64,000 nt of DNA from Cytophagaceae bacterium (lineage in GTDB: Bacteria; Bacteroidota; Bacteroidia; Cytophagales; Spirosomataceae): contig CANFVE010000010.1 in NCBI GenBank assembly GCA_947450365.1, forward strand, positions 1-64,000, written 5' to 3'. The first letter of the stretch is position 1. Every line of letters starts with the position of its first letter. Of the stretch, positions 43,259 to 61,673 are shown in pieces. The position numbers and the translations under genes are program-made. The notes under the pieces are model-generated. The model ran no database searches and was not told the DNA's origin. It saw only the letters and a list, made by a program, of their open reading frames with translations.

Positions 43259-43325
43259 TTAACAATTTGGTTAAAAGTTCATAATGTTTGGTTAACGAGT
43301 TGGTCTAAGCGGCGGGCTAATTTTG
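43259..43325 (+). promoter_or_regulatory. Pho-box-like promoter of the first TonB receptor gene
   Basis: TTAACA (43259-43264) and TTAACG (43292-43297) are 33 bp apart (three times 11). The second is followed by exactly 20 nt and the -7 element TAATTTTG (43318-43325). The ATG follows 27 nt later. A further TTAACA lies at 43228, out of register. The hexamer takes the place of the -33 box, as in activator-dependent promoters. The same layout occurs at 48997-49063. Confidence 0.5.
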
Positions 43326-43352
43326 CATCGAAAAAAAACACCAAAATCATTT

Positions 43353-46160: not shown

Positions 46161-46195
46161 TTTTCTCATATTAACAATTAAATAAATCAATTAAA

Positions 46196-47971
46196 ATGAA
46201 ACAAGTAAAAACACGTTTAATGAAAGTAATGGCGGTATTGTCCGTCATTTCGATTGCGTTTTCTGCATGTCAGAAAGACGAGGAGGTATTTCCTGTACCA
46301 ACAGTAACTTCTTCAGGTGCATTATCAGGAATTCCTGGTGCAACAGTTAGTGTAAAGGCAACCATTAGTGCTCCGGCTGGTTTGAAGTCTATTACCGTTT
46401 TGAAAAATGGGGTGGCTTTCGATACCAAATCATTCATGGGTACAGAAAAAACTGCTGATTATGCTAAGGATTATGTGATTGAGGGCGCTGCAGGTACTGT
46501 GGTGACATTCAGTATTCAGGCAACAGATGCTAAAAACCAAGTAAGTTCAATTACCCCAGTTTCTGTAAATGTAACGGCCATTCCGCCAAAAGCCATTGTG
46601 GAGGTAAAAGGTAACTTAGAAGGAAATGTAACTTGGACATCGGATAAAATCTACAAGTTGGTTGGTTTTGTACGGGTAGGTCAAGAAGATGTTTTCGGTA
46701 CTATCACGAAAAAAGGGGTGTTAACGATCCAACCAGGAACGGTCATCATCGGAGATCGTGCTTCTAAAGGTGCTTTGATCGTTCAACGTGGTTCTCAAAT
46801 TATTGCGAATGGTACCGCTTCAGCGCCTATCGTATTTACATCTGAGCGTTTGCCAGGTGAGCGTGAGGCAGGAGATTGGGGTGGATTAGTTATTTGCGGA
46901 CAAGCGCCAAATAACTTGCCAAATGATGCCACAAACCGTCAATTGGAAGGTGGTTATGGTGCATTCCATGGCGGTACTGATGCGGCTGATAATTCAGGTT
47001 CATTGAAATATGTTCGTTTAGAATATGCAGGTATTCCGATTAACCCGAACCAAGAGGTGAATTCATTAACCATGGGTTCTGTAGGTTCTGGAACGACGAT
47101 TGATTATGTACAAGCTTCATTCGGATTAGATGATTCATTTGAGTGGTTTGGTGGAACGGTAAATGCAAAACACTTAATCGCTTATAAAGGATTAGATGAT
47201 GATTTTGATACAGATAATGGATTCTCTGGATACGTGCAATTCGGTATTGGTATTCGGGGTGCTGCGATTGCGGATCAGTCAGGATCGAATGGTTTTGAGT
47301 GTGATAATGATGCGAACGGTTCAGCTAATACGCCATTTACTTCTGCGATTTTTGCGAACATGTCGATCATCGGCGCGAAGGGTGCGGTGAATATTGCGAT
47401 TGACCCATTGTTCCAACACGGAGCTCAATTGCGTCGTAACAACAAGCAAAAAATCTACAATACGGTCATCACAGGATATCCTTATGGAGTTTACATCGAT
47501 AGCCAAAAAGGAAATGCTAAGGCTAATGCGGCAGCTGGAGATATCGATTTACAAAACGTAATCTTAGCCGGTGTGGAAGGCTGGGGAACAGGTGGTTTCG
47601 GTTTGGGATGGTCTGTAAACGTAAAACCAATGGGTGTGGCGGTTCCAGGATTTGAAAACATGTCATCAGGTACGAATGGTACGGCCATTTTGATTGGAGA
47701 TAAGTCGCCAGAAGATTGGTTCAAAGGTTTGACGGGGAATAAGATTGTAGGATCTAATGCAAATTTAGGCTTGTCAACAAGTTTATGGTCGGCAGGTCGT
47801 CCGACATTTACGTTGGCAACTGGTACAACGGAATCGTTGATCGGACCAAAATTGAAATCTGATTTACCGGCTTTCTTTGAGGCTACAGATTATGTAGGTG
47901 CGTTTAAATCAACTGACTGGACAACTGGTTGGTCTGAATTTGCTCCTCAATCAGTCGTTTACGTTAAATAA
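46196..47971 (+). CDS. Surface lipoprotein with predicted right-handed beta-helix
   Basis: A 591-residue lipoprotein. The lipobox is IAFSACQK (cysteine near residue 23). An Ig-like domain (about 30-130) is followed by a large repetitive beta domain: GVLTIQPGTVIIGDRASKGA, LIVQRGSQIIANGTASAPIV, FTSERLPGEREAGDWGGLVI. This region is typical of parallel beta-helix proteins that are widespread in Bacteroidota and sometimes misnamed. Asp/Asn-rich stretches (GLDDDFDTDNGF, NGFECDNDANGSAN) could bind Ca. It follows a TonB receptor gene by 35 nt, so it may be the receptor's surface partner, as SusD is for SusC. Ligand unknown. Confidence 0.8.
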   Translation: MKQVKTRLMKVMAVLSVISIAFSACQKDEEVFPVPTVTSSGALSGIPGATVSVKATISAPAGLKSITVLKNGVAFDTKSFMGTEKTADYAKDYVIEGAAGTVVTFSIQATDAKNQVSSITPVSVNVTAIPPKAIVEVKGNLEGNVTWTSDKIYKLVGFVRVGQEDVFGTITKKGVLTIQPGTVIIGDRASKGALIVQRGSQIIANGTASAPIVFTSERLPGEREAGDWGGLVICGQAPNNLPNDATNRQLEGGYGAFHGGTDAADNSGSLKYVRLEYAGIPINPNQEVNSLTMGSVGSGTTIDYVQASFGLDDSFEWFGGTVNAKHLIAYKGLDDDFDTDNGFSGYVQFGIGIRGAAIADQSGSNGFECDNDANGSANTPFTSAIFANMSIIGAKGAVNIAIDPLFQHGAQLRRNNKQKIYNTVITGYPYGVYIDSQKGNAKANAAAGDIDLQNVILAGVEGWGTGGFGLGWSVNVKPMGVAVPGFENMSSGTNGTAILIGDKSPEDWFKGLTGNKIVGSNANLGLSTSLWSAGRPTFTLATGTTESLIGPKLKSDLPAFFEATDYVGAFKSTDWTTGWSEFAPQSVVYVK

Positions 47972-47978
47972 TTCTTGA

Positions 47979-48006
47979 GAGGGGGTTTTCGGGCCCCCTC
48001 TTTTTT
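47979..48006 (+). terminator. Terminator after the beta-helix lipoprotein gene
   Basis: GAGGGGG (47979-47985) pairs with CCCCCTC (47994-48000) across 8 nt, followed by six T. It lies 8 nt after the stop codon. Confidence 0.9.
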
Positions 48007-48013
48007 AATTCTT

Positions 48014-48550
48014 ATGAAATATTACACCAGCATCATCTTATTTTTTTTAATCACTTCGTGTACGTCAAGTGATTCTCCAGATTATTATTTCAAACCCGTC
48101 GATCGGGATATTTTAGTAACGAATATCATTACCTATGTTGGGCCGAATGCCCCGTATGCCTCGGATTCTACCCGGTTTAATCCAGAATTCAGAGCCTCCT
48201 ATGAGAAGGAATTGCCTAAGTATCAATTGGTTAATTTGTTTAAAACCGATGGTGGTACTTATTATTATTTTTTAATTCGACCGGTGGGTCATTTGGCACA
48301 ATTTCGGCGGGGTGTCGTGGGTTCTTTTACCTTAGATAGCGCGAGTTTAATGCCGAAAAATTTTAAAGAAATTATCAATACGCCTCATTTAGCTGAAGAA
48401 ATTGTGAAAGAGCGGGCAGGATTCTTGTTCAAAGAATTAGTTAAAAAAGGGAAAATTGAGGAATATATGGTCATGCGTGATTACGTGGAATGGCCAGATA
48501 GTACGTTGCAATATTCGGAGAAAACGAATCGTTGGGTTTTTCAACGATGA
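48014..48550 (+). CDS. Small lipoprotein of unknown function
   Basis: A 178-residue lipoprotein with lipobox FFLITSC (cysteine near residue 16). The mature part has a YYFKPVDRDILVTNIITYVG start and a YYYFLIRPVGHLAQFRRGVV strand region, then a helical KEIINTPHLAEEIVKERAGF segment. I do not recognise a family. The start at 48014 lies just after the terminator of the previous gene, so it may depend on readthrough or a weak own promoter. Its stop overlaps by 4 nt an ATG of the next gene (ATGA at 48547), indicating coupling. Confidence 0.7.
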   Translation: MKYYTSIILFFLITSCTSSDSPDYYFKPVDRDILVTNIITYVGPNAPYASDSTRFNPEFRASYEKELPKYQLVNLFKTDGGTYYYFLIRPVGHLAQFRRGVVGSFTLDSASLMPKNFKEIINTPHLAEEIVKERAGFLFKELVKKGKIEEYMVMRDYVEWPDSTLQYSEKTNRWVFQR

Positions 48551-48960
48551 GAAGTATCCTACAACTTTATATTGGTGTAATAAAGAAAATGCCGCGGGGC
48601 TTCCTCTCGGCATTTCTTGTTTTTCTATGTTGCTCCTGCCTCTATGATCAATCAAACAGCCAGCTTAGTCCCGCGTCCTGCAGCACTTCCCCCTCGAGTC
48701 AAGTATCTTTTTCGCGGGATATTTTTCCCATCATTAAAACCAATTGTTTCCAATGTCATGATGCGAAAAATCATTATGGCGGCATTGTGATTGAAACCTA
48801 TACCCAAATTGCCGAATCCGGAAAATCAGGAGAATTATATAATTCCATTCAGATCAATAGTTCGACTGGTAAAGCCTACATGCCCAAAGGAGGACGTTTG
48901 ATGGATTGTGAAATTGCATTAATCCAAGCCTGGATAAAACAAGGTGCGCTCAACAATTAA
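48547..48960 (+). CDS. Single-haem c-type cytochrome-like lipoprotein
   Basis: A short lipoprotein of about 137 residues with one CxxCH haem motif (NCFQCHDAKNHYGGIV). A hydrophobic start ends in LVFLCCSC, so the cysteine there is a likely lipid attachment site. After the haem motif comes YIxG-like packing (IQINSSTGKAYMPKGGRLMD) and the end EIALIQAWIKQGALNN, which matches small cytochrome c (planctomycete-type) domains that cap with a W-IxxGA helix. An ATG at 48589 would also give a lipoprotein signal. A terminator-like hairpin lies within the signal-peptide codons. Confidence 0.72.
   Translation: MRSILQLYIGVIKKMPRGFLSAFLVFLCCSCLYDQSNSQLSPASCSTSPSSQVSFSRDIFPIIKTNCFQCHDAKNHYGGIVIETYTQIAESGKSGELYNSIQINSSTGKAYMPKGGRLMDCEIALIQAWIKQGALNN
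48587..48625 (+). terminator. Terminator-like hairpin inside the cytochrome-lipoprotein gene
   Basis: AAATGCCG (48587-48594) pairs with CGGCATTT (48608-48615) and CTTGTTTTT follows. It falls within the signal-peptide region of the downstream gene, so it may reduce its expression. Confidence 0.5.
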
Positions 48961-48996: not shown

Positions 48997-49063
48997 TTAA
49001 CAATTAGGTAATCTGTTCTTAACAATTCCTTAACATTGGATTATAGGGTGTCGATTACCTTTG
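48997..49063 (+). promoter_or_regulatory. Pho-box-like promoter of the second TonB receptor gene
   Basis: Hexamers at 11-bp spacing read TTAACA (48997), GTAATC (49008), TTAACA (49019) and TTAACA (49030-49035). Exactly 20 nt later stands the -7 element TACCTTTG (49056-49063), and the ATG follows 25 nt further on. TTAACA-N5-TTAACA is the form of phosphate-regulator boxes in other phyla (PhoP of Bacillus, Pho boxes of cyanobacteria). The last repeat occupies the -33 position. Confidence 0.6.
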
Positions 49064-49088: not shown

Positions 49089-52000
49089 ATGTTATCATCG
49101 ACTAAAGCAGGATTTGTCCTGATCTTTACATTTTTGACCCTTGTGTTTTTTCAGTCCTTGGGTCAAATTACAACCTCAAGTCTTAGTGGAAAAGTGAAGG
49201 ATGCGAAAGGGGAAGAAATTCCAGGGGCAAGCGTTCAATTGTTGCACGTCCCAACAGGCACCCGTTACGGCGTTGCTACCCAAATTGACGGGAATTTCTT
49301 ATTAGCAAACATGAATCCTGGGGGTCCTTACACGCTAAGTGTTTCGTTTGTCGGGTTTAAAACGTTCAAAGCCGAAAATTTAAATTTGACCCTTGGTTCA
49401 AATCCTGCGGTAAATGTGGTGATTTCGGAGGAGACGACTACGCTGGTGGAAGTGGTGGTCAAAGCTGACAAGGGAGGAACGAAGTCCGGTGCCCTTACGC
49501 AATTAAACGAATCTACGATTAAGGCGGTCCCAACGATCAGTCGGAGTTTAACCGACATGACTCGCCTAACCCCGCAAGGAAGTTCAAGTAATTCATTTGC
49601 TGGAACAAATTTCCGGTATAATAACGTAACCGTCGATGGAACGATTAACAATGATGCCATCGGCTTTAGCCCTTCTTTAGGAGGTCAAAGTGGAACCTCA
49701 GGCATGCCAGGTTCGAGCACGCGGACCAATCCGATTTCCTTAGACGCCATTCAAGATGTTCAAGTCTATGTGGCCCCCTACGATGTTAAAATCGGTAATT
49801 TTACCGGGGGATCCATCAATGCGGTGACGCGTACAGGAACGAACCAAGTGAAGGGATCTGCCTATGCCTATGGCCGAAACTCTGTGATTACGGGCCCTAA
49901 CAATGCCGGCGATGGCGCGAAAATTCCATCCGATTATTCTGATTACCAAACGGGTTTTCGGGTAGGTTTGCCTTTGATTAAAAATAAATTGTTTTGGTTT
50001 ACCAATGAGGAAATCACGCGTCGGAATGAGCCTTTATTTTATGGGGCTGGCGATAAAGGAACGATTTTGGATGTGGCTACGGCCCAACAAATCACCTCGT
50101 TTTTGAAAACCAATTATGGTTTCGATCCAGGTGCTTATGGCAATTATGCCATAAATTCACAAAGCAATAAATTCTTCAATCGACTAGATTGGAACATTTC
50201 GGATAAGCACCAAATGTCCATCAGAAATAGCTATGTCGCTTCTGAAGCGACGAATTTAGAACGGGATGCTGCTAATTTCCGCTTTGGCTCAATGGATTTT
50301 CGTCAGGTGAATCGTACGAATTCCACGGTGGCAGAATTGAAAAGTCATTTTGGTAGTTCATCGAACAGTTTGATTTTAGGCTACACGAATATTAAGGATT
50401 ATCGGGAACCGTCGAGTAGTAATTTCGCATTTCCTCAAGTGGAAATTGCCGCGAACGGCGGAACGATTTTCTTAGGGAATGAGCGTGAAGCGACGGTGTT
50501 TAATATGAAGCAAAATACCTTTGAGTTTACAGACAATTTCACGTGGTTTAAGGGAAATCATACCTTTTTGATTGGTACGCATAACGAGCTTTACAATATC
50601 AATTATGGCTTTGTCAATTCATGGAATGGCCGGGTTTCTTACAAGAGCGTGGCCGACTTCTTAGCATCCAATGTGAACCGGGTTCGTGGCTCCTACAGTT
50701 TTACAAATAATGATCGGGATTACATTTATAACAATCCCTATGCATCATTTAACGTAGGACTTTACAGTGTGTATGCGCAAGATGAAATTCAGGTAACAGA
50801 GAAATTAAAATTGTCACCGGGAATTCGATTTGATTTAGCGAGTACGGATTCACCTTCCTTGAGTCCCAAAACGGCGATGACGAAAGTGGACCCAAATGCA
50901 GGAACGACTTATACGGCCTCAACGCCTTTGAATCAGGTTTCAAATACGATTTTTGGTCAGGTATTGGTTTCTCCTCGCTTGGGATTCAACTACGATGCGC
51001 TGGGAGATCGTTCATTGATTCTTCGTGGTGGAACAGGGATTTTTACGGGTAGAATTCCATTTGCTTGGTTGGGTTATGCATTCTACAACGATGGCGTTGG
51101 TTTCGGAGCTTTTGACGTAAACAATGTGGCAGGTAAAAACAAAGGCGATGTGTTGAAAGACGGCGCGAAAACCTTTGCCTTCAATAATGGCCAGGCGAGT
51201 TTAACCCAAGTAGATGCGATGGCCAATAACTTCAAAATGCCTCAGGTATGGCGGAGTAGTTTTGCGGTGGATCATACCGTGAATGGGTATAAGATTACCT
51301 TGGAGGGGATTTACACAAAGACGATTTCGGATTTGAAGTTCCAACAAGTAAACTTGAAAGATTCGGTTAAATATTATTCTTACGATGTCTTGAAGCAAAT
51401 GCCGATTTACCTTTCTGGAGGTGCTACGGGCCAAAAATTAAACACATCTTTCTCGAATGCCTATGAATTATCGAATACTTCCGAGGGACATCGCTATAGT
51501 TTAACGGCGCAGGTTTCCAAGAGTTTTGCGACAGGATTTAATTTTATGATGGCGTATACATTTGGTCAAAGTTTTGATTTGACGAATGGAATCCGAAATT
51601 CAATGGAATCGAACTGGCAGTTGAACCAATCCCTAAACCCCAACAATCCAAAATTAGCGTATTCGAATTTTGATATTCGTCATCGGATTATCGGATCCTT
51701 TGGTTATACGAAAGCATGGAAAAATGGAAGCGCTACGACCTTATCTGGGGTATTTAGTGCGCAATCAGGCGCTCCATTCACCTGGGGTTTTGTGAACTCG
51801 ACGCTTGCGAATACTCCGCAGGCGGCAGGTTTAGGCTATGTGTTTAAAGATGAGGCGGAGGCGACTAAATATTTTGTGGATGATGCCAAGTTAGGTACGG
51901 CAGCGGTACAAGCCAAAGCTTTCATGGATTTTGTGAATGGAGATGAATATCTGAGTACGCGCAAGGGTGATTTTACGGAGCGAAATGGTGGCCGCACGCC

Positions 52001-52295
52001 TTGGAATACGACCTTGGATTTGAAATTAAATCACTCGGTTCGGTTGACGAACGGCCATGAAATCCAACTTTCCTTAGACATCATGAATGCCACAAATTTA
52101 ATGAATGCCGATTGGGGTAGAATTTATTTTTCCCCAAATACCTTTAATTCAACAGCTAGTTTAGGATTAACTCGGATTAATTCGGGCACGGCGGCTGATC
52201 CGACATTTAAGTTTGCCAGACCAACGGAGCCTTATACCATCGACCAAATGGGTTCTAGATGGCAAATGCAAGTGGGCGCGAGATATACGTTTTAA
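49089..52295 (+). CDS. Oar-like TonB-dependent receptor
   Basis: A 1068-residue outer-membrane receptor with signal peptide (LTLVFFQSLGQ), an N-terminal carboxypeptidase-regulatory domain (about 28-105, LSGKVKDAKGEEIPGASVQL), a plug domain (SRSLTDMTRLTPQGSSSNSF, FRYNNVTVDGTINNDAIGFS) and a large barrel ending in MQVGARYTF. The plug text and length match Oar-type receptors, known for protein or large-ligand transport. It has the Pho-box-like promoter and lies upstream of the phosphonate cluster, with which it converges. Ligand unknown. Confidence 0.9.
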   Translation: MLSSTKAGFVLIFTFLTLVFFQSLGQITTSSLSGKVKDAKGEEIPGASVQLLHVPTGTRYGVATQIDGNFLLANMNPGGPYTLSVSFVGFKTFKAENLNLTLGSNPAVNVVISEETTTLVEVVVKADKGGTKSGALTQLNESTIKAVPTISRSLTDMTRLTPQGSSSNSFAGTNFRYNNVTVDGTINNDAIGFSPSLGGQSGTSGMPGSSTRTNPISLDAIQDVQVYVAPYDVKIGNFTGGSINAVTRTGTNQVKGSAYAYGRNSVITGPNNAGDGAKIPSDYSDYQTGFRVGLPLIKNKLFWFTNEEITRRNEPLFYGAGDKGTILDVATAQQITSFLKTNYGFDPGAYGNYAINSQSNKFFNRLDWNISDKHQMSIRNSYVASEATNLERDAANFRFGSMDFRQVNRTNSTVAELKSHFGSSSNSLILGYTNIKDYREPSSSNFAFPQVEIAANGGTIFLGNEREATVFNMKQNTFEFTDNFTWFKGNHTFLIGTHNELYNINYGFVNSWNGRVSYKSVADFLASNVNRVRGSYSFTNNDRDYIYNNPYASFNVGLYSVYAQDEIQVTEKLKLSPGIRFDLASTDSPSLSPKTAMTKVDPNAGTTYTASTPLNQVSNTIFGQVLVSPRLGFNYDALGDRSLILRGGTGIFTGRIPFAWLGYAFYNDGVGFGAFDVNNVAGKNKGDVLKDGAKTFAFNNGQASLTQVDAMANNFKMPQVWRSSFAVDHTVNGYKITLEGIYTKTISDLKFQQVNLKDSVKYYSYDVLKQMPIYLSGGATGQKLNTSFSNAYELSNTSEGHRYSLTAQVSKSFATGFNFMMAYTFGQSFDLTNGIRNSMESNWQLNQSLNPNNPKLAYSNFDIRHRIIGSFGYTKAWKNGSATTLSGVFSAQSGAPFTWGFVNSTLANTPQAAGLGYVFKDEAEATKYFVDDAKLGTAAVQAKAFMDFVNGDEYLSTRKGDFTERNGGRTPWNTTLDLKLNHSVRLTNGHEIQLSLDIMNATNLMNADWGRIYFSPNTFNSTASLGLTRINSGTAADPTFKFARPTEPYTIDQMGSRWQMQVGARYTF

Positions 52296-52309: not shown

Positions 52310-53632
52310 TTACGAAGCGGCGTTGTCAAGTTTGAGACTTAATAGCGCCGTTTTTTTGATTAAAAATTTTCTGAAAAAGTACATCGCGGTTAGGAAAGAT
52401 ATAATTACTCCTGCAATTCCTATGATTTTTATCCAAAAGAAAAATAGCTTTGGTATAACCCATTCAGGAAACAAAAACCCCGCACTCAATAAAAGTAAAT
52501 TATATCCTAAATAGCCAATTGAATCTACGATATACATCAAAAATCCCACATTGGCTTTAATTCTAGTTATGGAAATCATGCGCTCAAAAACGGAAGTTGT
52601 AATCGTTAAATAGGGAAGGTAAATACCAAAGCCAGTTAAGACAATCAACCAAAATTTTGGTAGATAATTAAGGCCCCAAAGCCCGGAAATAATCAAAAGC
52701 AAATAGCCCGTTGCGATGCATCCTAGACTTAAGAAAAAGGCCGTTTTGTTTTTCTTTATCAGTACCAAACTTCCATTAATGAGTAAAATACCGACGGTTA
52801 CCCAAATTTCGGTTTGGGAATACAAAGAAGGAACACTTGAATAACCTAAATATTTCCAGATTTCAGGTGCGAAATCAGATCGAATGCCGCGTAATAGAGA
52901 GGCTCCTAAATACAATATACTGACGCCGATGATACCTGGCCACAGCATTTTAAACACATGAATTCGATCCGCCTGAGTCATGGGAATGCGTTCGGAGCGA
53001 TTGGCTATATCCGCTACATTTGGTCTAGGAATTTGCGTCAGCATCCAAACGAAAAACACGAGAGGTCCCATAAACAAAAGTCCTGCGATAAAGGGCATCC
53101 AAGTTTCAGGGATTTGAAGGCTGAGGAGCCAACTGCCCGTTGACTTCGAAACCCCATCCGCCAAAATAAAACTTGACCCCAGAGCCGCTATATATAATTC
53201 CGTATTCTTCTTCCCCTCCAAAAAACCCTGAATATACCCAAATATCATGCCCAAAGGCAAGCCATTCATGACCAGGAACAGAACATTCCATGGTTTTGGA
53301 CATATGCCAAATCCCAAAAGAGCTATTTCTGCCACCAAAATACTTAGCAAAATCGCTCGGGCTCTTTTTTCCCAAGTTATGCCCGAGACCACAAATATGC
53401 CACACCATTTGGATAGCATATAACCCGCAATTTGAGAGGAAATTAATACGGATTTCCATGGGATACCGTGCCAGCTTTGATCTACATATAAACCCGCCGT
53501 AAAGGGTTTCCGAAAGCCATACACACAAAAATAACAGCCAAAAGCGGCCACCATTGACCAAATGGGATGCATTGCAATTTTTTGCAATAGGCTTTTTTCA
53601 CCTTGATTCCTTAAATCCAGGGATGAAATCAT
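52310..53632 (-). CDS. DUF5690 family MFS-like membrane protein (candidate phosphonate transporter)
   Basis: A 440-residue polytopic protein with about 12 hydrophobic segments, matching DUF5690. AFGCYFCVYGFRKPFTAGLY resembles the early region of organophosphate:Pi antiporters (GlpT/UhpT), which also carry a conserved arginine there. MNGLPLGMIFGYIQGFLEGK and FGIYLPYLTITTSVFERMIS are further conserved parts. It overlaps the phnZ-like gene by 4 nt and is the last gene of the minus-strand phosphonate operon, which argues for phosphonate import or exchange. That role is inference. Confidence 0.78.
   Translation of the reverse strand: MISSLDLRNQGEKSLLQKIAMHPIWSMVAAFGCYFCVYGFRKPFTAGLYVDQSWHGIPWKSVLISSQIAGYMLSKWCGIFVVSGITWEKRARAILLSILVAEIALLGFGICPKPWNVLFLVMNGLPLGMIFGYIQGFLEGKKNTELYIAALGSSFILADGVSKSTGSWLLSLQIPETWMPFIAGLLFMGPLVFFVWMLTQIPRPNVADIANRSERIPMTQADRIHVFKMLWPGIIGVSILYLGASLLRGIRSDFAPEIWKYLGYSSVPSLYSQTEIWVTVGILLINGSLVLIKKNKTAFFLSLGCIATGYLLLIISGLWGLNYLPKFWLIVLTGFGIYLPYLTITTSVFERMISITRIKANVGFLMYIVDSIGYLGYNLLLLSAGFLFPEWVIPKLFFFWIKIIGIAGVIISFLTAMYFFRKFLIKKTALLSLKLDNAAS
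52318..52357 (+). terminator. Terminator of the Oar-like receptor gene, inside the 3' end of the DUF5690 gene
   Basis: CGGCG (52318-52322) pairs with CGCCG (52346-52350), with an inner AAGT/ACTT stem, followed by seven T. It overlaps the last codons of the converging DUF5690 gene. Confidence 0.7.
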
Positions 53633-54174
53633 AAAGTAAATGATTCCAAATAAGGCGCATAATATGCCACTGGTTTCACTTCTAACTCGGGCACTTTGGC
53701 TAAATCATCATATTTGCGAAGAATGACTGCATCCTTGTGGTAAGGATTTGCCTCAAAGATGGCGCATTCCTCCAAGGTCATCGGGCCACCTTGTAGACCT
53801 AAACTGATAATGGAAGGTTCGCTTAATAAACCTAAATATGAAGGGTCAACTTGGCATAGATACCGTTTTGCCGCCACATGTAAACGCACGGGCTCCACGA
53901 CCTCATTCGTAAAATGTTGTTTTAAAAAATCATTCGCCAATTCTTCATGAAAATCATCTACGCCGTGGTCCGGTGCATCATCAGGTAAATGGTGCAACAA
54001 ATGTCCAATGTCATGCAATAGACCCGCCACCACGATATTCGCTTGTTCGCCATTTTCCATGGCCAAGTGTGCCGCTTGTAGCGCATGCTCTTTTTGACTC
54101 ACGGCTTCTCCGCCATATTGTGAATCGCCATGCTCTTCGATTAGGCGGATGATTTTTTCAACGATTTCTGACAT
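53629..54174 (-). CDS. phnZ: PhnZ-type HD-domain phosphonate oxygenase
   Basis: A 181-residue HD-domain protein of the group associated with phosphonate operons (TIGR03276). PhnZ is a mixed-valent di-iron oxygenase that splits 1-hydroxy-2-aminoethylphosphonate into glycine and phosphate. The expected residues are all present with a constant 4-5 residue offset from PhnZ as I recall its numbering: Tyr20, His30, His54-Asp55 in LLHDIGH, His58, His76, His99, Lys103 and Asp156 in RKYDDLAK, with Arg153 nearby. It overlaps the DUF5690 gene by 4 nt. A PhnY hydroxylase to make the substrate is not in the window. Confidence 0.87.
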   Translation of the reverse strand: MSEIVEKIIRLIEEHGDSQYGGEAVSQKEHALQAAHLAMENGEQANIVVAGLLHDIGHLLHHLPDDAPDHGVDDFHEELANDFLKQHFTNEVVEPVRLHVAAKRYLCQVDPSYLGLLSEPSIISLGLQGGPMTLEECAIFEANPYHKDAVILRKYDDLAKVPELEVKPVAYYAPYLESFTL

Positions 54175-54259
54175 GATTTTCTAGATTAAATTGTAATTTA
54201 GACCTAGCCGCATAGATTAAAAAGGCAGCGGAATTCATTTAAAATAGATTTCATATTGC

Positions 54260-54272
54260 CGTAACAATTACG
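54260..54272. repeat. 13-bp palindrome just upstream of the phnO-like gene
   Basis: CGTAA and TTACG flank CAA (54260-54272), 4 nt before the ATG at 54277, in the 102-nt gap between the divergent phnZ and phnO-like genes. No TAnnTTTG box is seen in this gap in either direction. It may be an operator. Confidence 0.45.
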
Positions 54273-54276
54273 TAAA

Positions 54277-54714
54277 ATGGACATTGGTTTTGAGATTCGA
54301 GAGGTTCAATCAACAGATGAGGAAGTCGTTCGTATTTTATTGGACGAATTGGAAGAACGCATCGCGGACCCATCCATTTTTCATACGATTTTCAAGGAAT
54401 ATCTTCACCGAAAGGAGGCAGTTTTTTTAGTCGCGGAAGTGGATCGAAATGTGATTGGTTTTATTTCGTGTTTGGGCCAACGGTTATTGCATCACGAAGG
54501 TTGGGTCTATGAAATTCAAGAATTAATTGTCACCGAGGCATTTCAAGGAAAGAAGATAGGTCAAGCACTTATCGAGGAAGTGCGCAAACGAATAGAGCCA
54601 CGCGGTATTAAGTCCATTGAAGTGTGTTCCAATAAGCGAAGAAAAAAAGCCCATGCTTTTTATCAGGCAGTAGGCTTTGCAAATTCGCATGAAAAATTTA
54701 CGATCTATTTTTGA
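54277..54714 (+). CDS. PhnO-like aminoalkylphosphonate N-acetyltransferase (GNAT)
   Basis: A 145-residue GNAT enzyme very like E. coli PhnO (144 residues), which acetylates aminoalkylphosphonates. Matching blocks are HHEGWVYEIQELIVTEAFQG, the acetyl-CoA loop KKIGQALIEE, and VCSNKRRKKAHAFYQAVGF followed by SHEKFT, where PhnO has NVKRHDAHRFY and SHFRFTK. It faces the opposite way to the other phosphonate genes, divergent from the phnZ gene and converging with the FAD oxidoreductase gene (10-nt overlap). A palindrome CGTAACAATTACG ends 4 nt before its ATG. Confidence 0.82.
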   Translation: MDIGFEIREVQSTDEEVVRILLDELEERIADPSIFHTIFKEYLHRKEAVFLVAEVDRNVIGFISCLGQRLLHHEGWVYEIQELIVTEAFQGKKIGQALIEEVRKRIEPRGIKSIEVCSNKRRKKAHAFYQAVGFANSHEKFTIYF

Positions 54715-55856
54715 TAGAGTGTATTCATGTATTCTTGGGTAAAACCTGGGCTTGTGGTCATTCCCTTACCTCCGATGCCATTGATTAGGTGGATTACGTC
54801 CTCAATTTCTTTGGTAAAAACTTCGGATTTGGTGCCTTGCAAATAATACCCGGCCCAGGAGGAATCTACGTGCCAGCTTTCTAGCTGGATAATTTTTTTT
54901 GCCTCTTCTAGCATTAATTCATTGATTTCCGTTGAGATTTCAAATCCAAAATTCGCCTGCTTGTGGGCAGGCACATATTCGTGAGAATCGCCTAAGATTA
55001 TGGAACCGTCTTCGGCTTGTTTAAATAAAATATGAATGCCTAGGTTTTGAAGGGCGGTCTGTTCGGCTGTTGTGGTGATTTTAGCAAATGATGGACAAGA
55101 TTTAAAACTATCGTAGCGACGAATGGTCAATCCGGTTAATATATTCGACTTGATTAATTTTTTCTGTGGCGCTAAACGAAGCATTTGCAATTTGCTGATT
55201 TTTAATTCTGCGCCATTGTAATGCTCGGGAAATAAAAATTGTGTATCACGTCCATTGGCCACGATGACTTTATCGGCCCAATAGGTTTGTTTATGCGAGG
55301 TGAACACTTTGGCGATGCCCCGTTTTTTTTCTACATCGATGACAGAGCAGAGGTTTTGATAATGCAAGCCCATGTGTTGGATCATGAATTCGCGTACCTT
55401 ATGCACCATGACCAATGGGTTCAAAGATGCTTCCTCGGGCATGAAAAGTCCTCCTTTGACATAGTTCTTATTGAGGGCAGGATTAATTTCTAGACACTCA
55501 GCTGCTGTATAAAGCCGGCACGTGTAGGATCTTTCGGAAAATAGTTTTTGAATTTCCTCTAAAAGCGTTGCTTCTTGATCATCCGATGCATAATACCAAG
55601 AACCATTTTTGACTAGGGAAATATTGGTTTCCTCCTGTAGGTCCTTATAGATCTTTAGGGATTTTCGTCCATAATCAAACCATTTATTCAGGGATTGTCC
55701 GGAGGGAACGGCTTGCCCAAAATTCCGAAAACTTGCTTCAAAGGGTTGGGAATCTTTTTCTAGCAAAAGAACCGCTTTCCCCTTTTTCAAGGCGTGAAAG
55801 GCGGAAAATGTACCTATAATTCCGCCACCTACAACGATAAGATCATATTTTTTCAT
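54705..55856 (-). CDS. FAD-dependent oxidoreductase, phosphonate-associated (TIGR03364 type)
   Basis: A 383-residue DAO-family flavoenzyme. The FAD loop is VVGGGIIGTFSAFHALKKGK (about 8-27). SFRNFGQAVPSGQ near residue 45 is the hallmark of the TIGR03364 group, which sits beside phosphonatase-like genes. GIGGKGMTTSPG closes the FAD site. Members have been proposed, and some shown, to oxidatively remove the amino group from 2-aminoethylphosphonate-like compounds, giving phosphonoacetaldehyde. The gene overlaps the end of the HAD gene by 14 nt. Together they would form a two-step hydrolytic route. Confidence 0.85.
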   Translation of the reverse strand: MKKYDLIVVGGGIIGTFSAFHALKKGKAVLLLEKDSQPFEASFRNFGQAVPSGQSLNKWFDYGRKSLKIYKDLQEETNISLVKNGSWYYASDDQEATLLEEIQKLFSERSYTCRLYTAAECLEINPALNKNYVKGGLFMPEEASLNPLVMVHKVREFMIQHMGLHYQNLCSVIDVEKKRGIAKVFTSHKQTYWADKVIVANGRDTQFLFPEHYNGAELKISKLQMLRLAPQKKLIKSNILTGLTIRRYDSFKSCPSFAKITTTAEQTALQNLGIHILFKQAEDGSIILGDSHEYVPAHKQANFGFEISTEINELMLEEAKKIIQLESWHVDSSWAGYYLQGTKSEVFTKEIEDVIHLINGIGGKGMTTSPGFTQEYMNTLYQK

Positions 55857-56580
55857 GATTGATTTCCTCGATTATCGCTATTAAATCATCAATTCTATTC
55901 AATAAACCATCATTAGGGAAAGGCTCTAATTGGCTTCTTGTATGTGTTCCATTGCACACACCCAGTGCTAGGCGAATGTTTGCATTTTTTCCAAAGGCTA
56001 AGTCGACCGGCGTATCTCCTACATTAATGACTTGTCGAGGATCCGTAATGCCTGTTTTTTTCATAGCTAAATGAATCATGGCTGGGTCAGGTCGGCCCTT
56101 TCCCGCTTCATCTGGCGTTAGGGATAAATGAATACCCTGGCTATTTCTAAGATTTATAAAATTTTGATTTAAGGATTGTCCCCAGCCAATTTTGGTAAGT
56201 ATGATATTGGCAACTGTTCGGTAAAATCCTGTTGTTAACGCAATGAAAATTTCATTTTTGTGTAGGTAGTCGAAAAGTTCTTGACAACCTTCTGTTTTTA
56301 AGACAGGCTGTGTCCGATAATGCGCTTCTAAAATGTCTTTAAAATCATGGTATGACTTTTCGGCTTTTGCCGGAATCGTTGAATCATGTTCGCCGAGTTG
56401 CTCTGTCCAAAGCATTTCAAATACTTGCAATTTTGCGTAGCCCTGAAGTGAGAGAATGCGTTCGTCACTAGCGTGTAAACCGTTTTGAATAGCAGCTTTT
56501 TTAAAGCACATTTCGACTTCGTGTTGGTCCAAAATGGTCGTCCCTGCCATATCCAATACGACTAATTTTATTTTTGTCAT
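55843..56580 (-). CDS. Phosphonatase-like HAD hydrolase (PhnX/TIGR03351 type)
   Basis: A 245-residue HAD enzyme. Motif I is VLDMAGTT with nucleophile Asp10; the AGT after it is the phosphonoacetaldehyde hydrolase (PhnX) form. In the cap, LQGYAKLQVFEML places Lys50 where PhnX has its Schiff-base lysine. ALTTGF is motif II and INVGDTPVDLAFGKNANI motif IV. PhnX cleaves phosphonoacetaldehyde to acetaldehyde and phosphate; TIGR03351 members are described as phosphonatase-like. It is the first gene of the minus-strand cluster and is divergent from the SusC gene. Confidence 0.85.
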   Translation of the reverse strand: MTKIKLVVLDMAGTTILDQHEVEMCFKKAAIQNGLHASDERILSLQGYAKLQVFEMLWTEQLGEHDSTIPAKAEKSYHDFKDILEAHYRTQPVLKTEGCQELFDYLHKNEIFIALTTGFYRTVANIILTKIGWGQSLNQNFINLRNSQGIHLSLTPDEAGKGRPDPAMIHLAMKKTGITDPRQVINVGDTPVDLAFGKNANIRLALGVCNGTHTRSQLEPFPNDGLLNRIDDLIAIIEEINHEKI

Positions 56581-56608
56581 CGTCGTTTAAAAATCGAAGT
56601 AAGTTATT

Positions 56609-56650
56609 CAAAATTACCTTTTTGTTATCCCAATATTAAATAATTGTCAA
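56609..56650 (-). promoter_or_regulatory. Promoter of the phosphonate operon with degenerate 11-bp repeats
   Basis: A -7 element TAATTTTG (56609-56616, minus strand) lies 28 nt upstream of the HAD gene. Upstream on the same strand TTGACA (56645-56650), TTAATA (56634-56639) and ATAACA (56623-56628) follow each other at exactly 11-bp spacing. They fit the Pho-box-like hexamer only loosely, and the distance to the -7 box differs from the two receptor promoters. Confidence 0.3.
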
Positions 56651-56801
56651 TAGAATAAAAATGGTATTATTCTAATTTTTTATTTATTCCATTTTTGAAT
56701 TTTACACATTGGAAACACGGTAATAACGCAATGGTAATATTAGGTTTTAACTCTTAACAATCTCTTTTTTTTCAATCTGATTTTACCATAAAATCAATAA
56801 T

Positions 56802-56809
56802 TACTTTTG
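56802..56809 (+). promoter_or_regulatory. -7 promoter element TACTTTTG for the susC gene
   Basis: A TAnnTTTG match 26 nt upstream of the SusC ATG. A TTAACA at 56754-56759 lies 42 nt upstream, which is in the same 11-bp register as the two Pho-box-like promoters but is a single copy. A pair of GGTAATA repeats (56719, 56733) lies further up. Confidence 0.45.
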
Positions 56810-56835
56810 CCTTAAATTAACTAAACTAAAAATTC

Positions 56836-59800
56836 ATGAGAAAGAATCTACAAAGATTTATCACCAAAAACGCGTCAAAAGTGCTATTTTGGCTCGTTTT
56901 AGCTGTGGGACAGTTGACCTACCATGTAGGTCTTGCACAAGACCGTCAAGTTAAAGGAACCGTGGTTTCTAATGATGACAAGGCGGGTATTCCAGGGGTT
57001 TCAATCCGAGTAAAAGGAGGGAAACAAGGAACAAATTCGGATGTTAATGGACAATTTTCATTAGCAGTGCCTTCCAATGGAATATTAGAATTTTCCATGG
57101 TAGGTTACAAAAACCAAGAAGTCAAAATTGGAAGCCAAACAGACATCAAGATTGTTTTAGAAATCGATGCGCGTCAATTACAAGAGGTTGTGGTAACTGC
57201 CTTAGGTATTAAAAAAGATGTTCGTAGGATCGGGGTAGCCATTCAATCAGTGGACGGATCGGCCACCATTAAAGCTCGTGAGCCAAATGCAATCAATGCA
57301 TTGTCGGGACGTGTGGCTGGTTTGACTGTGGGTGCTCAACCAGAGTTACTACGTAAGCCTAATATCTCTTTACGTGGTAGTTCTACTGTCCTATATGTAG
57401 TGGATGGTGTGCCTATCAACTCAGATACTTGGAACATTTCTCCGGATGATATCGAAACCTATTCAGTTTTAAAAGGAGCATCTGCTTCGGCTTTGTATGG
57501 TTTCCGAGGAAAAAATGGTGCCATATTAATTACGACTAAGCGAGGTTCGTCAGATAAGCGTGGGTTCTCAGTAGAAGTTAATTCTTCGACACAATTGCAA
57601 GGAGGATTCTATGCCATTCCAGAAGTTCAAGATGAATATGGTCCTGGGGATCATGGCGCGTATGCATTTGGAGATGGAAAAGGGGGCGGATTAAATGATG
57701 GAGATTACGATGGGGGTTGGGGTCCAAAATTCAATGGTCAATTAATTCCACAATATGATTCTCCAGTGGATCCAATTACTGGTAAGCGTTCTGGAACTCC
57801 CTGGATCGCACGTGGCAAAGATAACCTAAAGCGTTTTTTGGAAACAGGAGTATTATCAACGAATAATATTTCAGTAGCAGCTTCTGGGGAGAAGTATAAT
57901 TTACGATTTTCTACTTCTCACATATATCAAAAAGGTATTGTTCCTAATACTCAATTAAATATGACAAATTTCAATATCACGGCAGATTATAAATTCTCCA
58001 ATAAATTGAAGTTTGAGTCAAACTTACAATACAACCGTCAATACACGCCAAATATTCCAGATGTAAACTACGGTCCTAACTCGATTATTTATAATATCGT
58101 CTATTGGGCGGGTGCCGATTGGAATATCGATGATATGCGCAATTATTGGCAAAAGGGGAAAGAAGGTATTCAGCAAATTTATGCAGAATATCAGCGCTAC
58201 AATAATCCTTATTTTATGTCATACGAATGGTTACGGTCCCATTACAAAACCGATATTATTGGCCAAGCTGCCTTGCGTTATACTTTTAATGATAACTTGA
58301 ATTTGTTAGCAAGGACTCAAGTAACGACTTGGGATATGTTACGCACGGAAAAATTCCCTTATTCTGCAGGTACGTATGGACGTGATGAGCGTCGTGGAGA
58401 TTACCGCGAAGACCGTCGTTCATTGTTTGAAAATAATACGGAGTTATTATTGACTTTCGACAAAGATGTGTTGCCTGGACTTAATACAAAAATTACGGCT
58501 GGTGCATCCCAACGTATTTTCCAATACAAATCCATGTTTGCGACTACAAACTATTTGAACGTTCCGGGTTTGTATAATTTTTCGAACTCAGCAAATCCGG
58601 TACAAGTGGCCAACTTTGGTTCAGACATGCAAGTGCTTTCAGCCTATTATTCAGCGGACTTTTCTTATAAGAAATACTTAACTGTTTTCGCAACTGGGCG
58701 TATGGATAAGTTATCTACCTTACCTCAAGGAAATAACACATTCTTCTATCCTTCATTTGGCGCGGTTACCGTATTGTCTGATTATGTGGATTTGCCAGAA
58801 ACAGTTTCTTTCTTGAAATTCCGAGGATCTTATGCGAACGTAAAAGATGGTTTAACATCCTCTACCATTGATAACCGAATGGGAACTTATTCAGGTGAAA
58901 ATTACAACTCACCTTACGACGGTCCTTCGTATCAAAACAATACAGTTTATTCAACGGGTTTCTACTACAATAATCAAACAGGTGCAACCTATGGGAATGA
59001 ATTAAGTAATCCGAACTTGAATCCATCTGAAACCTCTCAGACTGAATTCGGTATGGATTTGCGGTTATTCAAAAATCGGATTGGAATTGATGTTGCATAT
59101 TTCATCTCAAATGATGGCCCTTCTATCTTCTCATTGCCAATTTCATCTACTTCAGGATATACATCTGCTTTAGTAAATGGTATTAAGACGCAAAAGAAAG
59201 GATATGAAATTTCGGTAACGGGTACACCAATCCAAACTGCGGATTTCCGCTGGGATGTTTTAGCGAATTATTCAACGTATGAGCAACGGTTAACGGATAT
59301 CTACCCAGGAATCACAAGCTTAAATACATTCTTAAAAGTAGGCGATCGTACAGATAAATTATATGGATCTGCATTCCTTCGCACACCTGATGGAAAAATC
59401 ATTAATACCGCCGGTGGTATTCCGATTAACGTTTCTGGAACACAAGCCCAGTATTTAGGAAATATTAATCCTGATTTCGTATTTGGCTTTAATAATAAGG
59501 TTACTTACAAAAACCTAAGCTTAAGTGTGTTGTTTGACGGTCGTGTAGGTGGGTCAATTATCAATTATACCCAACAGCAGGCATACCGAGGGGGTCGCCA
59601 CATTGGAACAACGCAAGGGATTTTTGCGGAGGCTCGTCCTCAAGATGCGTTAGGTGTTAAAGCGTTTATAGGCCAAGGTGTTGTGGTAAGTAATGGTGTT
59701 GCCATTAAGTTAGATGCAAACGGGAAAATTACAAATTATGCTGATTTGCAATTTGCTCCTAATACGGTGAAAACATATGTTCAAGATTATGTAGGACGTT

Positions 59801-60057
59801 ATTATAATACGAATGAAGGTAATTTAATGAGCCGTTCATTTGGTATGTTGAAGGAAGTAGTTTTCGGCGTAAAATTACCAGCTTCTTGGTTTGGTAAGTA
59901 TGTTTCTACCGCGAATGTTTCTTTTGTCGGACGTAACTTATTGTATTTTGCTGAAGCGAAAGACACGGATTTGTCACAGTATTTGTCTGATGGAGCTTCA
60001 AGTCCACAAACGCCTTCTGTAAGAAGTTACGGGGTTAATTTAAACTTCACATTCTAA
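56836..60057 (+). CDS. SusC/RagA family TonB-linked outer-membrane protein
   Basis: A 1073-residue SusC-type transporter that imports ligands together with its SusD lid. A signal (VGQLTYHVGLAQ) is followed by a carboxypeptidase-regulatory domain (about 38-110, GIPGVSIRVKGGKQGTNSDV). LQEVVVTALGIKKDVRRIGV is the SusC family signature. The plug (REPNAINALSGRVAGLTVGA; VVDGVPINSDTWN) and barrel follow, ending in VNLNFTF. susD follows after a 29-nt gap. It diverges from the phosphonatase gene. SusCD systems mostly take up glycans, but phosphate-regulated SusCD systems are also reported in Flavobacterium, as I recall. Confidence 0.94.
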   Translation: MRKNLQRFITKNASKVLFWLVLAVGQLTYHVGLAQDRQVKGTVVSNDDKAGIPGVSIRVKGGKQGTNSDVNGQFSLAVPSNGILEFSMVGYKNQEVKIGSQTDIKIVLEIDARQLQEVVVTALGIKKDVRRIGVAIQSVDGSATIKAREPNAINALSGRVAGLTVGAQPELLRKPNISLRGSSTVLYVVDGVPINSDTWNISPDDIETYSVLKGASASALYGFRGKNGAILITTKRGSSDKRGFSVEVNSSTQLQGGFYAIPEVQDEYGPGDHGAYAFGDGKGGGLNDGDYDGGWGPKFNGQLIPQYDSPVDPITGKRSGTPWIARGKDNLKRFLETGVLSTNNISVAASGEKYNLRFSTSHIYQKGIVPNTQLNMTNFNITADYKFSNKLKFESNLQYNRQYTPNIPDVNYGPNSIIYNIVYWAGADWNIDDMRNYWQKGKEGIQQIYAEYQRYNNPYFMSYEWLRSHYKTDIIGQAALRYTFNDNLNLLARTQVTTWDMLRTEKFPYSAGTYGRDERRGDYREDRRSLFENNTELLLTFDKDVLPGLNTKITAGASQRIFQYKSMFATTNYLNVPGLYNFSNSANPVQVANFGSDMQVLSAYYSADFSYKKYLTVFATGRMDKLSTLPQGNNTFFYPSFGAVTVLSDYVDLPETVSFLKFRGSYANVKDGLTSSTIDNRMGTYSGENYNSPYDGPSYQNNTVYSTGFYYNNQTGATYGNELSNPNLNPSETSQTEFGMDLRLFKNRIGIDVAYFISNDGPSIFSLPISSTSGYTSALVNGIKTQKKGYEISVTGTPIQTADFRWDVLANYSTYEQRLTDIYPGITSLNTFLKVGDRTDKLYGSAFLRTPDGKIINTAGGIPINVSGTQAQYLGNINPDFVFGFNNKVTYKNLSLSVLFDGRVGGSIINYTQQQAYRGGRHIGTTQGIFAEARPQDALGVKAFIGQGVVVSNGVAIKLDANGKITNYADLQFAPNTVKTYVQDYVGRYYNTNEGNLMSRSFGMLKEVVFGVKLPASWFGKYVSTANVSFVGRNLLYFAEAKDTDLSQYLSDGASSPQTPSVRSYGVNLNFTF

Positions 60058-60086
60058 TTTTTCATTTCTATTAAATGATTCATACA

Positions 60087-61673
60087 ATGAAAATCAAAAA
60101 TATAATTTTAGGTATGTTAGGTTTCTCTTTGCTGACTTTAAGCAGTTGCGAAAAGACCTTTGATCAATTGGAAAAAGACTCCAATCGTGCCGTACAAGTT
60201 CCTGCGTCCTTAGTGTTGCAAACTGTAGAATACAATGTCTTGAATGATAATGGTCGCCCTTTCTCTGCGGAAGCTCGTTGGAACCAGTTCTATTGCTCTA
60301 ATTATAACTATTATGCAAATAATGAATATAACTTAGGACAAATGCCAAATCAATACACCACCTTGAAAAATGTAATCAAGATGGAAGAAGAGGCTAAAAA
60401 AGCAGGTTTAGCCGATGTGAATGGATATTCAGCTTTAGGTAAATTTTTCCGTGCGTATTTCTTTGATCAAATGTCAAAAAGGGTAGGTGATTTACCTATG
60501 ACAGAGTCGTTGAAAGGAATCGAAAATACGGCTCCAAAGTATGATTCACAAAAAGTAATTTATGTGCAAATCTTAAAATGGTTAGATGATGCCAATACAG
60601 ACTTGTCGACCTTGATTGCAAAGGGGGAAACAGTTTCTGGCGATTTTTATTTTTCAGGGGATTTGAAAAAATGGCAAAAAGTTGTGAACGCATATCGTTT
60701 GCGCGTGTTGATCACCTTATCAAAAAAAGATTCAGATACTGACTTGGCGGTGAAAACGAAATTTGCTGAAATGGTCAGCAATCCAACTAAATATCCAATT
60801 TTGGGTTCGAATGGAGAGTCATTGCAATTCGTTTGGAATTCATTTAACAAGTATCCTTCGAACCCAGATAATTTTGGTTTTGATGCAACACGTCAAAATA
60901 TGGCGTCTACCTACGTTGGATACTTAACTAAAATTCAAGACCCTCGTGTGATGGTTACATGTGAGCCAGCAGGTTCAGATTTGAAAGCAGGTAAATTGCC
61001 ATCAGACTATACGGCTTATCGTGGCGCAGGTTCAGGGGATGTTTTGGATGACATGTCTAAAAATGCAGGTTTGTCGAATGGCACTGGTTTTGCACCGGGT
61101 ATTTATTCATTCCAAAATCGTGCTCGGTACTATCAAAATTATACGGGTGAGAATACGTTTATCGTAGGCTATCCTGAATTATGTTTTAATATCGCAGAGG
61201 GTTATGCACGTGGATGGGCCACGGGGTCAGCTGAAGATTGGTATAAGAAAGGGATCAAGGCTTCTCATGCTTTCTATGGTATAGTGGATGGCGCGAATAC
61301 GATGACGTATTCGAAGACAGGATCTAAAGATGCGGCTGATTTGACGAAATATACGGTCAACTTTAATTTTGATACCTATTACGCACAGGCTTCTGTTCAA
61401 TTAGATGCTGCAAATGCAATTGAGAAAATTGTTTCTCAAAAATATGCAGCCTTCTTTATGAATTCAGGAATGGAGGCATATTTCAATTGGAGAAGAACGG
61501 GTTTTCCTGCATTCTCCACAGGCGCAGGAAATGGTAACTCAGGCCGTATAGCTCTTCGTTGGATTTATCCATCGACGGAAAGAACTGCTAATGCTACGAA
61601 TTACACAGCAGCCATAACGAATCAGTTTTCTGGTAAAGATGATATTAATGACCAGATTTGGTTGATTAAATAG
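60087..61673 (+). CDS. SusD/RagB family lipoprotein (SusD-like_2 type)
   Basis: The surface-exposed lid of the SusCD transporter, about 528 residues. The lipobox LTLSSCEK lies near residue 21 (cysteine). FDQLEKDSNRAVQVPASLVL, RAYFFDQMSKRVGDLPMTES, and WLDDANTDLSTLI are typical of the SusD-like_2 group with TPR helices. The C-terminal part has YFNWRRTGFPAF and GRIALRWIYPSTE, which fit the family. The ATG at 60087 is preferred (signal MKIKNIILGMLGF); the ATG at 60075 would add four residues. Ends with a terminator. Confidence 0.92.
   Translation: MKIKNIILGMLGFSLLTLSSCEKTFDQLEKDSNRAVQVPASLVLQTVEYNVLNDNGRPFSAEARWNQFYCSNYNYYANNEYNLGQMPNQYTTLKNVIKMEEEAKKAGLADVNGYSALGKFFRAYFFDQMSKRVGDLPMTESLKGIENTAPKYDSQKVIYVQILKWLDDANTDLSTLIAKGETVSGDFYFSGDLKKWQKVVNAYRLRVLITLSKKDSDTDLAVKTKFAEMVSNPTKYPILGSNGESLQFVWNSFNKYPSNPDNFGFDATRQNMASTYVGYLTKIQDPRVMVTCEPAGSDLKAGKLPSDYTAYRGAGSGDVLDDMSKNAGLSNGTGFAPGIYSFQNRARYYQNYTGENTFIVGYPELCFNIAEGYARGWATGSAEDWYKKGIKASHAFYGIVDGANTMTYSKTGSKDAADLTKYTVNFNFDTYYAQASVQLDAANAIEKIVSQKYAAFFMNSGMEAYFNWRRTGFPAFSTGAGNGNSGRIALRWIYPSTERTANATNYTAAITNQFSGKDDINDQIWLIK

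Follow-up and report, generated by a model that had tools for sequence, protein, structure and literature searches.

The window analyzed here comprises 64,000 nucleotides (bases 1-64000 of one contig) from the genome of a freshwater Aquirufa (Bacteroidota, Cytophagales), whose assembly amounts to 2.66 Mb in 61 contigs and is 93.6% complete. It contains five adjacent genes that resemble phosphonate functions, next to a divergently oriented SusC/SusD pair; every function assigned to this locus is deduced from sequence. Four of the five genes occupy the minus strand and encode a DUF5690 membrane protein, proposed to be an aminophosphonate permease (52310-53632), a PhnZ-type HD-domain mixed-valent diiron oxygenase (53629-54174), a flavin adenine dinucleotide (FAD)-dependent aminophosphonate oxidoreductase of the HpnW/PbfD type, called HpnW below (54705-55856), and a PhnX-like HAD phosphonatase (55843-56580). 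The fifth gene, for a PhnO-like GNAT acetyltransferase (54277-54714), lies on the plus strand. A divergent promoter region (56581-56835) separates the HAD gene from plus-strand genes for a SusC/RagA TonB-dependent outer-membrane transporter (56836-60057) and a SusD-like lipoprotein (60075-61673).

An earlier note on this DNA had read the five genes as a compact aminophosphonate catabolism cluster. All five open reading frames were found where it had placed them, as were the overlaps of 4 nt between the DUF5690 and HD genes and of 14 nt between the FAD and HAD genes. The GNAT gene, opposite in strand to the other four, additionally overlaps the FAD gene by 10 nt at its 3' end and diverges from the PhnZ gene out of a common 102-bp intergenic region. 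Because of this orientation and the divergent intergenic region, the five genes do not make up a single polycistron, an arrangement that the opposite-strand GNAT rules out both in the window and in all 16 complete Aquirufa clusters.

The comparison of neighborhoods that the earlier note had suggested recovered all five genes together with the adjacent SusC in 16 of 17 wide Aquirufa neighborhoods. Throughout these 16 complete clusters, PhnZ and DUF5690 overlap by 4 nt and GNAT keeps its place and opposite orientation, the HAD/FAD overlap being 8, 14 or 23 nt. This conserved arrangement exceeds chance. The exception is genome G007, where HpnW alone (66% identical; L035, 8937-10097) lies between two Pit genes, with no HAD, PhnZ, DUF5690 or SusCD around it in that stretch. 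Neighborhoods were labeled by means of profiles built for this analysis, with score thresholds, on mechanically called open reading frames; many contigs are short, and the labels undercount, as with the unlabeled HAD of L155 and the unlabeled FAD enzyme of L179.

Profile searches upheld the proposed families for the HD, FAD and DUF5690 proteins, while the HAD and GNAT proteins fell under the TIGR03351/PhnX and PhnO cut-offs, respectively. The HD protein reached 215.8 bits against TIGR03276 (Phn-HD, PhnZ-like), narrowly over the cut-off of 214.6, and matched the PDB chains of TmpB (6npa, 1.1e-38) and PhnZ (4mlm, 2e-26). It stayed under the 300-bit cut-offs of the substrate-specific families for TmpB (NF049941, 169.5 bits) and GmPhnZ1 (NF052439, 158.7 bits). 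Its residues Y20, E23, H30, H54, D55, H58, H76, H99, K103 and D156, at positions taken from the alignment with 4mlm that we take to be the metal and substrate residues, are all invariant in 61 homologues. Except for E23, which is an addition, they had been named before, and both these and the hydrolase residues pointed out at the time sit at the given positions. The FAD protein scored 354.5 bits against TIGR03364 (HpnW/PbfD), over the cut-off of 285.1.

The scores of the other two proteins weaken the case for a phosphonate pathway. The HAD protein reached 164 of 218.9 bits against TIGR03351 (PhnX-like) and 77.9 of 220 bits against TIGR01422 (PhnX phosphonatase), and GNAT 73.3 of 142 bits against the PhnO family NF007530, with 58.4 bits against PF00583. 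Since these scores lie under the cut-offs, we describe both proteins as closest to the named families and not as members. Among relatives, the HADs of L051 (222.6) and L083 (229.1) exceed the TIGR03351 cut-off and that of L096 (208.4) does not. Despite the low profile score, D10, A12-G13-T14, K50, R163 and D189 of the HAD protein are invariant in 52 homologues; the conservation sets for HAD and PhnZ exclude homologues shorter than 80% of the window protein and include some genomes twice. As we understand the description of TIGR03351, with its DxAGT motif, cap lysine and arginine replacing lysine, D10-A12-G13-T14, K50 and R163 fit it.

The two independent phosphorus-releasing routes of the earlier note are plausible for this locus, with the oxidative one apparently half-supplied. 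A complete PhnY*/PhnZ route is rejected, as the best of the 7 PhyH proteins in this 93.6% complete genome scores 45.9 bits where a PhnY-type cut-off demands 500 (TmpA-type hydroxylases were not searched for). PhnW or carbon-phosphorus (C-P) lyase as an alternative entry is likewise rejected, with no protein of this genome above the PhnW cut-off and no match to PhnJ, and so is the cell's own phosphonate synthesis as a substrate source, with no PepM match in the genome. The substrates are therefore probably imported, and PhnZ would need one that is already hydroxylated.

Such a requirement also suits a single hydroxylated-substrate route, in which HpnW would deaminate (R)-1-hydroxy-2-aminoethylphosphonate (HAEP), the divergent HAD would cleave the resulting hydroxy-aldehyde and PhnZ would oxidize the same substrate. 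The position of the HAD outside the PhnX equivalog and under TIGR03351 means that its substrate could differ, and HAEP is the compound named in the TIGR03364 description, an older TIGRFAM suggestion quoted in PMC10590968. However, the PbfC and PbfD enzymes whose assays are described in the consulted part of that source act on N-methyl-2-aminoethylphosphonate (N-methyl-AEP) and, less well, on AEP itself, and HpnW and HAD occur without PhnZ in 8 of the 18 enzyme-bearing Bacteroidota neighborhoods described below. We regard a single hydroxylated-substrate route as unlikely.

The larger unit to which these enzymes belong, comprising SusCD, DUF5690 as a transporter, esterases and regulation, was omitted from the earlier note, and its import chain is the more interesting part of the locus. 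The DUF5690 protein matches PF18943 with 389 bits (cut-off 25) along the entire profile (1-382 of 382), and its AlphaFold model adopts a confident major facilitator superfamily (MFS) fold (predicted local distance difference test score, pLDDT, 88.7). The top Foldseek match of the model is human G6PT1 (9ll1; template-modeling scores 0.66/0.72), with GlpT at rank 29. Residues Y34, R41 and K75 are invariant in 25 sequences, and hhalign sets them, with Y38, on the Y-x3-Y-x2-R and SK motifs of GlpT, whose phosphate-site residues are presumably R45 and K80; the probability of that alignment is just 1.7%. Other results speak against a specific kinship with the organophosphate:phosphate antiporters (OPA). 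NorA, the second match, and sialin and other non-OPA transporters fit the model almost as well, the DUF5690 profile had no sequence match among PDB chains, and the hhalign values for single E. coli transporters besides GlpT were 59% for UhpT, 0.1% for LacY and 0.4% for EmrD.

DUF5690 was found in 29 of 296 Bacteroidota genomes drawn evenly (the window's own included), as one copy each. In 18 of the 28 other neighborhoods, one or more of HpnW, HAD and PhnZ are encoded: HpnW with HAD in 14, PhnZ in 8, and enzymes together with SusC and SusD in 9. The remaining 10, less favorable to a phosphonate function, show no HpnW, HAD or PhnZ, which suggests that DUF5690 may be used otherwise too; one of the ten, L099, also lost its DUF5690 label. 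At least one of the three enzymes is present at 55, and at least two at 40, of 89 non-Aquirufa loci with labeled DUF5690; these are 97 loci minus 8 without the label, were partly chosen by similarity, and are subject to the same undercounting. Phosphonate enzymes adjoin DUF5690 not only in Bacteroidota but also in Planctomycetes and Acidobacteria, and a named survey of its loci extends to Planctomycetes, Verrucomicrobia and Acidobacteria. Named strains with the locus include Aquirufa beregesia 50C-KIRBA, Cnuella takakiae RG1-1 and Flavisolibacter nicotianae X7X. At some loci a class-V aminotransferase or a zinc alcohol dehydrogenase accompanies or replaces the three enzymes; one such dehydrogenase scores narrowly under the TIGR03366 cut-off (324.5 of 328.1). 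Taken together, an aminophosphonate permease is the most economical reading of the DUF5690 model and its neighborhoods. A literature search by the name DUF5690 found no paper.

Two side observations concern the same family. In records L129-L196, which were chosen by similarity to the window DUF5690 from among the matches listed, the gene adjoins HpnW or PhnZ in Planctomycetes and Acidobacteria, for example HpnW in Rhodopirellula baltica (L167). In the genome of locus L084 (9010-17458), a single cluster apparently holds several means of breaking aminophosphonates: DUF5690, HpnW and PhnZ are joined there by a class-V aminotransferase, an aldehyde dehydrogenase and a protein of the phosphodiesterase family that may be PhnA-like.

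At the outer membrane, the SusC protein scored 473.3 bits against TIGR04056 (cut-off 368.25) and SusD 202.5 bits against PF12771. A divergent SusC adjoins HAD in 16 of 17 Aquirufa loci, corresponding to all 16 complete clusters, and is followed by SusD in 15 of these; at L038 the contig ends and SusD is found on a different one. Across 37 genomes of the genus, HpnW (over its cut-off) and SusD occur together in 23, HpnW alone in 2, SusD alone in 1 and neither in 11 (Fisher p 1e-6), although the genes are linked and the genomes partly incomplete, so that the events are not independent. The single SusD-only genome carries an HpnW fragment on the same contig, and G023, counted as having neither, contains HpnW at 221 of 285 bits. 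Outside the genus, the best match of the window SusD sits at a phosphonate locus in 9 of 10 genomes, selected for SusD near DUF5690, and elsewhere in G238.

In a tree of 22 SusD proteins from phosphonate loci and 16 paralogues, which are part of the matches listed, 18 of the 22, including that of the window, form a clade free of paralogues (support 100/99) that spans several families and reaches Chitinophagaceae and Saprospiraceae. A smaller tree with 15 paralogues, leaving out L212, the best match of G238, gave the same clade with support of 100/100. Of the remaining four, three group in a second clade and L083 stands separately. This counts against a uniform history, since monophyly of all 22 was rejected by the approximately unbiased (AU) test (p-AU 2e-5 with 16 paralogues, 2e-8 with 15); a single origin of all phosphonate-linked SusDs is thereby ruled out, and SusD was probably recruited to phosphonate loci more than once. 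A further caution is the abundance of SusC genes, at least 19 in many genomes, because of which adjacency of SusC proves little by itself and was set aside as proof of membership.

Both this abundance and the probable multiple origin would fit a SusCD that is an unrelated neighbor, importing for example peptides or glycans, beside enzymes that do use phosphonates, as would the different TonB receptor that is alone in view at 4 of the 18 enzyme-bearing loci. The attachment of an 18-member SusD clade to phosphonate loci over several families and the co-occurrence with HpnW in Aquirufa make such coincidental proximity quite improbable. The trees and neighborhoods instead indicate that SusCD genuinely belongs to the phosphonate locus and is for the most part inherited.

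An exact direct repeat, CTTAACA-N4-CTTAACA with an 11-nt period (49018-49035, plus strand), begins 71 bp upstream of the gene for a neighboring TonB-receptor-like protein (49089-52295, plus strand; 182.5 bits against PF25183), which is possibly co-regulated and has an 88% identical counterpart beside DUF5690 in L036. We take this repeat to resemble known Pho boxes. In 18 Aquirufa sequences (382 kb), 12 copies with no more than one mismatch were counted where 0.2 would be expected, an excess that does not stand for as many independent events because the sequences are homologous. Three of the copies precede phosphate transporter genes identified by the PHO4 profile (two in L035, one in L045), and further near-identical copies precede unprofiled genes of similar size and position in L044, L047 and L048. 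In an alignment of 17 Aquirufa HAD/SusC divergent regions, the TTAA core of the first half is present in all 17, and the window carries the conserved block CTTAACAAT at 56751-56766 (a local match). Two results detract from control by such a sequence at the locus itself: the repeat before the window SusC is just half conserved, its second half being retained less well, and at 3 mismatches the repeat shows no enrichment over expectation in the window (7 observed, 6.2 expected) and was set aside as a signal. A weak Pho-box-like repeat between PhnZ and GNAT (54260-54277, plus strand, 3 mismatches) is alone not above chance.

On balance, it is fairly probable that the five genes and the divergent SusC/SusD constitute a phosphate-starvation-type locus for aminophosphonate utilization, a phosphonate version of the Bacteroidota phosphate utilization systems (PUS). 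SusCD and TonB would carry an aminophosphonate, or a conjugate bearing one, across the outer membrane. In relatives, though not at the window locus, the substrate may be trimmed by an esterase of the PhoA or NPP type that is probably secreted. DUF5690, as an MFS permease resembling organophosphate:phosphate antiporters, would then move it into the cytoplasm, where HpnW could convert N-methyl-AEP or AEP to phosphonoacetaldehyde by oxidative deamination, as demonstrated elsewhere for PbfD. The PhnX-like HAD is predicted from its residues to split phosphonoacetaldehyde into acetaldehyde and phosphate via a lysine Schiff base. Separately, PhnZ would release phosphate and glycine or methylated glycine from an imported (R)-1-hydroxy aminophosphonate. 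As the weakest step of the scheme, GNAT may acetylate surplus or non-metabolized aminophosphonates.

Accessory genes vary among the 16 complete Aquirufa clusters. A PhoA-type alkaline phosphatase lies between HpnW and GNAT in 11 of them; there is none at the window locus and no match in the window's genome. An NPP-like esterase is nearby in 7, and by visual judgment all 11 PhoA and all 8 NPP proteins inspected have a signal-peptide-like N-terminus. These genes bear on the possibility that the cluster serves detoxification or nitrogen and carbon salvage, by GNAT acetylation and by deamination to acetaldehyde or glycine, and is not a source of phosphorus. The presence of GNAT in every complete cluster would agree with such a role, and AEP can be used as a nitrogen source via AepP in Pseudomonas putida (PMC8316502, as excerpted). 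The phosphatases and Pit phosphate transporters that relatives encode at the locus or close to it, and the common Pho-box-like repeat ahead of Pit genes, point the other way and leave detoxification or salvage very improbable, in favor of phosphorus acquisition from aminophosphonates.

The enzyme chemistry is largely published already, and the locus is a PUS-kind variant built from known enzyme families. In Flavobacterium, PusCD loci combine a SusCD-type importer with phosphatases, phosphodiesterases, PitA and, in some, phosphonate-degrading enzymes, and uptake of organic phosphorus has been proposed for them (PMC8115612, in the part consulted). The window locus likewise has a SusCD pair co-localized with organic-phosphorus enzymes, but its core is the aminophosphonate set with DUF5690; DUF5690, HpnW and PhnZ are not named for PUS in that part of the source. 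Induction by phosphate depletion was measured for the Flavobacterium loci, whereas the window locus is known from sequence and offers a Pho-box-like repeat only. Achromobacter has HpnW, PhnX and PhnHD in or near one operon, the same association of TIGR03364 flavoenzyme, TIGR03276 oxygenase and phosphonatase; these operons differ in being proteobacterial and in having a true PhnX where the window has a divergent HAD, and the excerpted text mentions neither SusCD nor DUF5690 (PMC11203657).

PbfD1, a TIGR03364 protein like the window enzyme, and related flavoenzymes convert N-methyl-AEP to phosphonoacetaldehyde, and PbfD1 also converts AEP (PMC10590968, in part); the substrate of the window enzyme, in a genome with no PhnW above cut-off, is a prediction. 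The HD oxygenase has the metal-site residues of the PhnY*/PhnZ, TmpA/TmpB and GmPhnY*/GmPhnZ pairs, but its cluster has no hydroxylase partner and it lies under both substrate-specific NCBIfam cut-offs (compared with the pairs as excerpted from PMC10574752). AepP, described in the consulted part of PMC8316502 as a GlpT-like MFS permease for 2-AEP, falls in the broad fold class in which DUF5690 models, whereas DUF5690 constitutes a Pfam family of its own, with a profile that has no sequence match in the PDB. A literature search for Aquirufa together with phosphonate found no paper.

Phosphonates, with their C-P bond, make up a stable reservoir of reduced phosphorus, and to our knowledge their import by Bacteroidota and Planctomycetes is largely open. 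The locus supplies a candidate outer-membrane importer, represented by the SusD clade, and a candidate function for DUF5690. A more speculative reading, somewhat less likely than not, is that Bacteroidota possess a TonB-powered lineage dedicated to importing aminophosphonates or phosphonate esters such as phosphonolipids and phosphonoglycans. It would consist of a specific SusCD clade, a secreted esterase of the alkaline phosphatase superfamily to free the headgroup, and DUF5690, which would be the family-defining aminophosphonate permease and would act likewise in Planctomycetes, Verrucomicrobia and Acidobacteria.

Elsewhere in the window, a Pit-type phosphate transporter is encoded at 30338-31795 on the minus strand (PHO4, 295 bits). 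Consecutive genes at 43323-48960 encode a TonB receptor, proteins of 591 and 191 amino acids and a small protein that weakly matches a cytochrome, a group partly retained beside the Aquirufa locus. The model of the 591-amino-acid protein (pLDDT 71) is a solenoid rich in β-strands with weak, pectate-lyase-like structural matches only, and recalls the FI/FII lipoproteins of Flavobacterium PUSIII/IV. The genes beyond SusD (61973-63797) encode a protein of surface-polysaccharide type and another resembling cytidylyltransferases, as they do in L033, L034 and L036; the pair is unlabeled in the other Aquirufa stretches, of which L038, L043 and L046 end at SusC or SusD.

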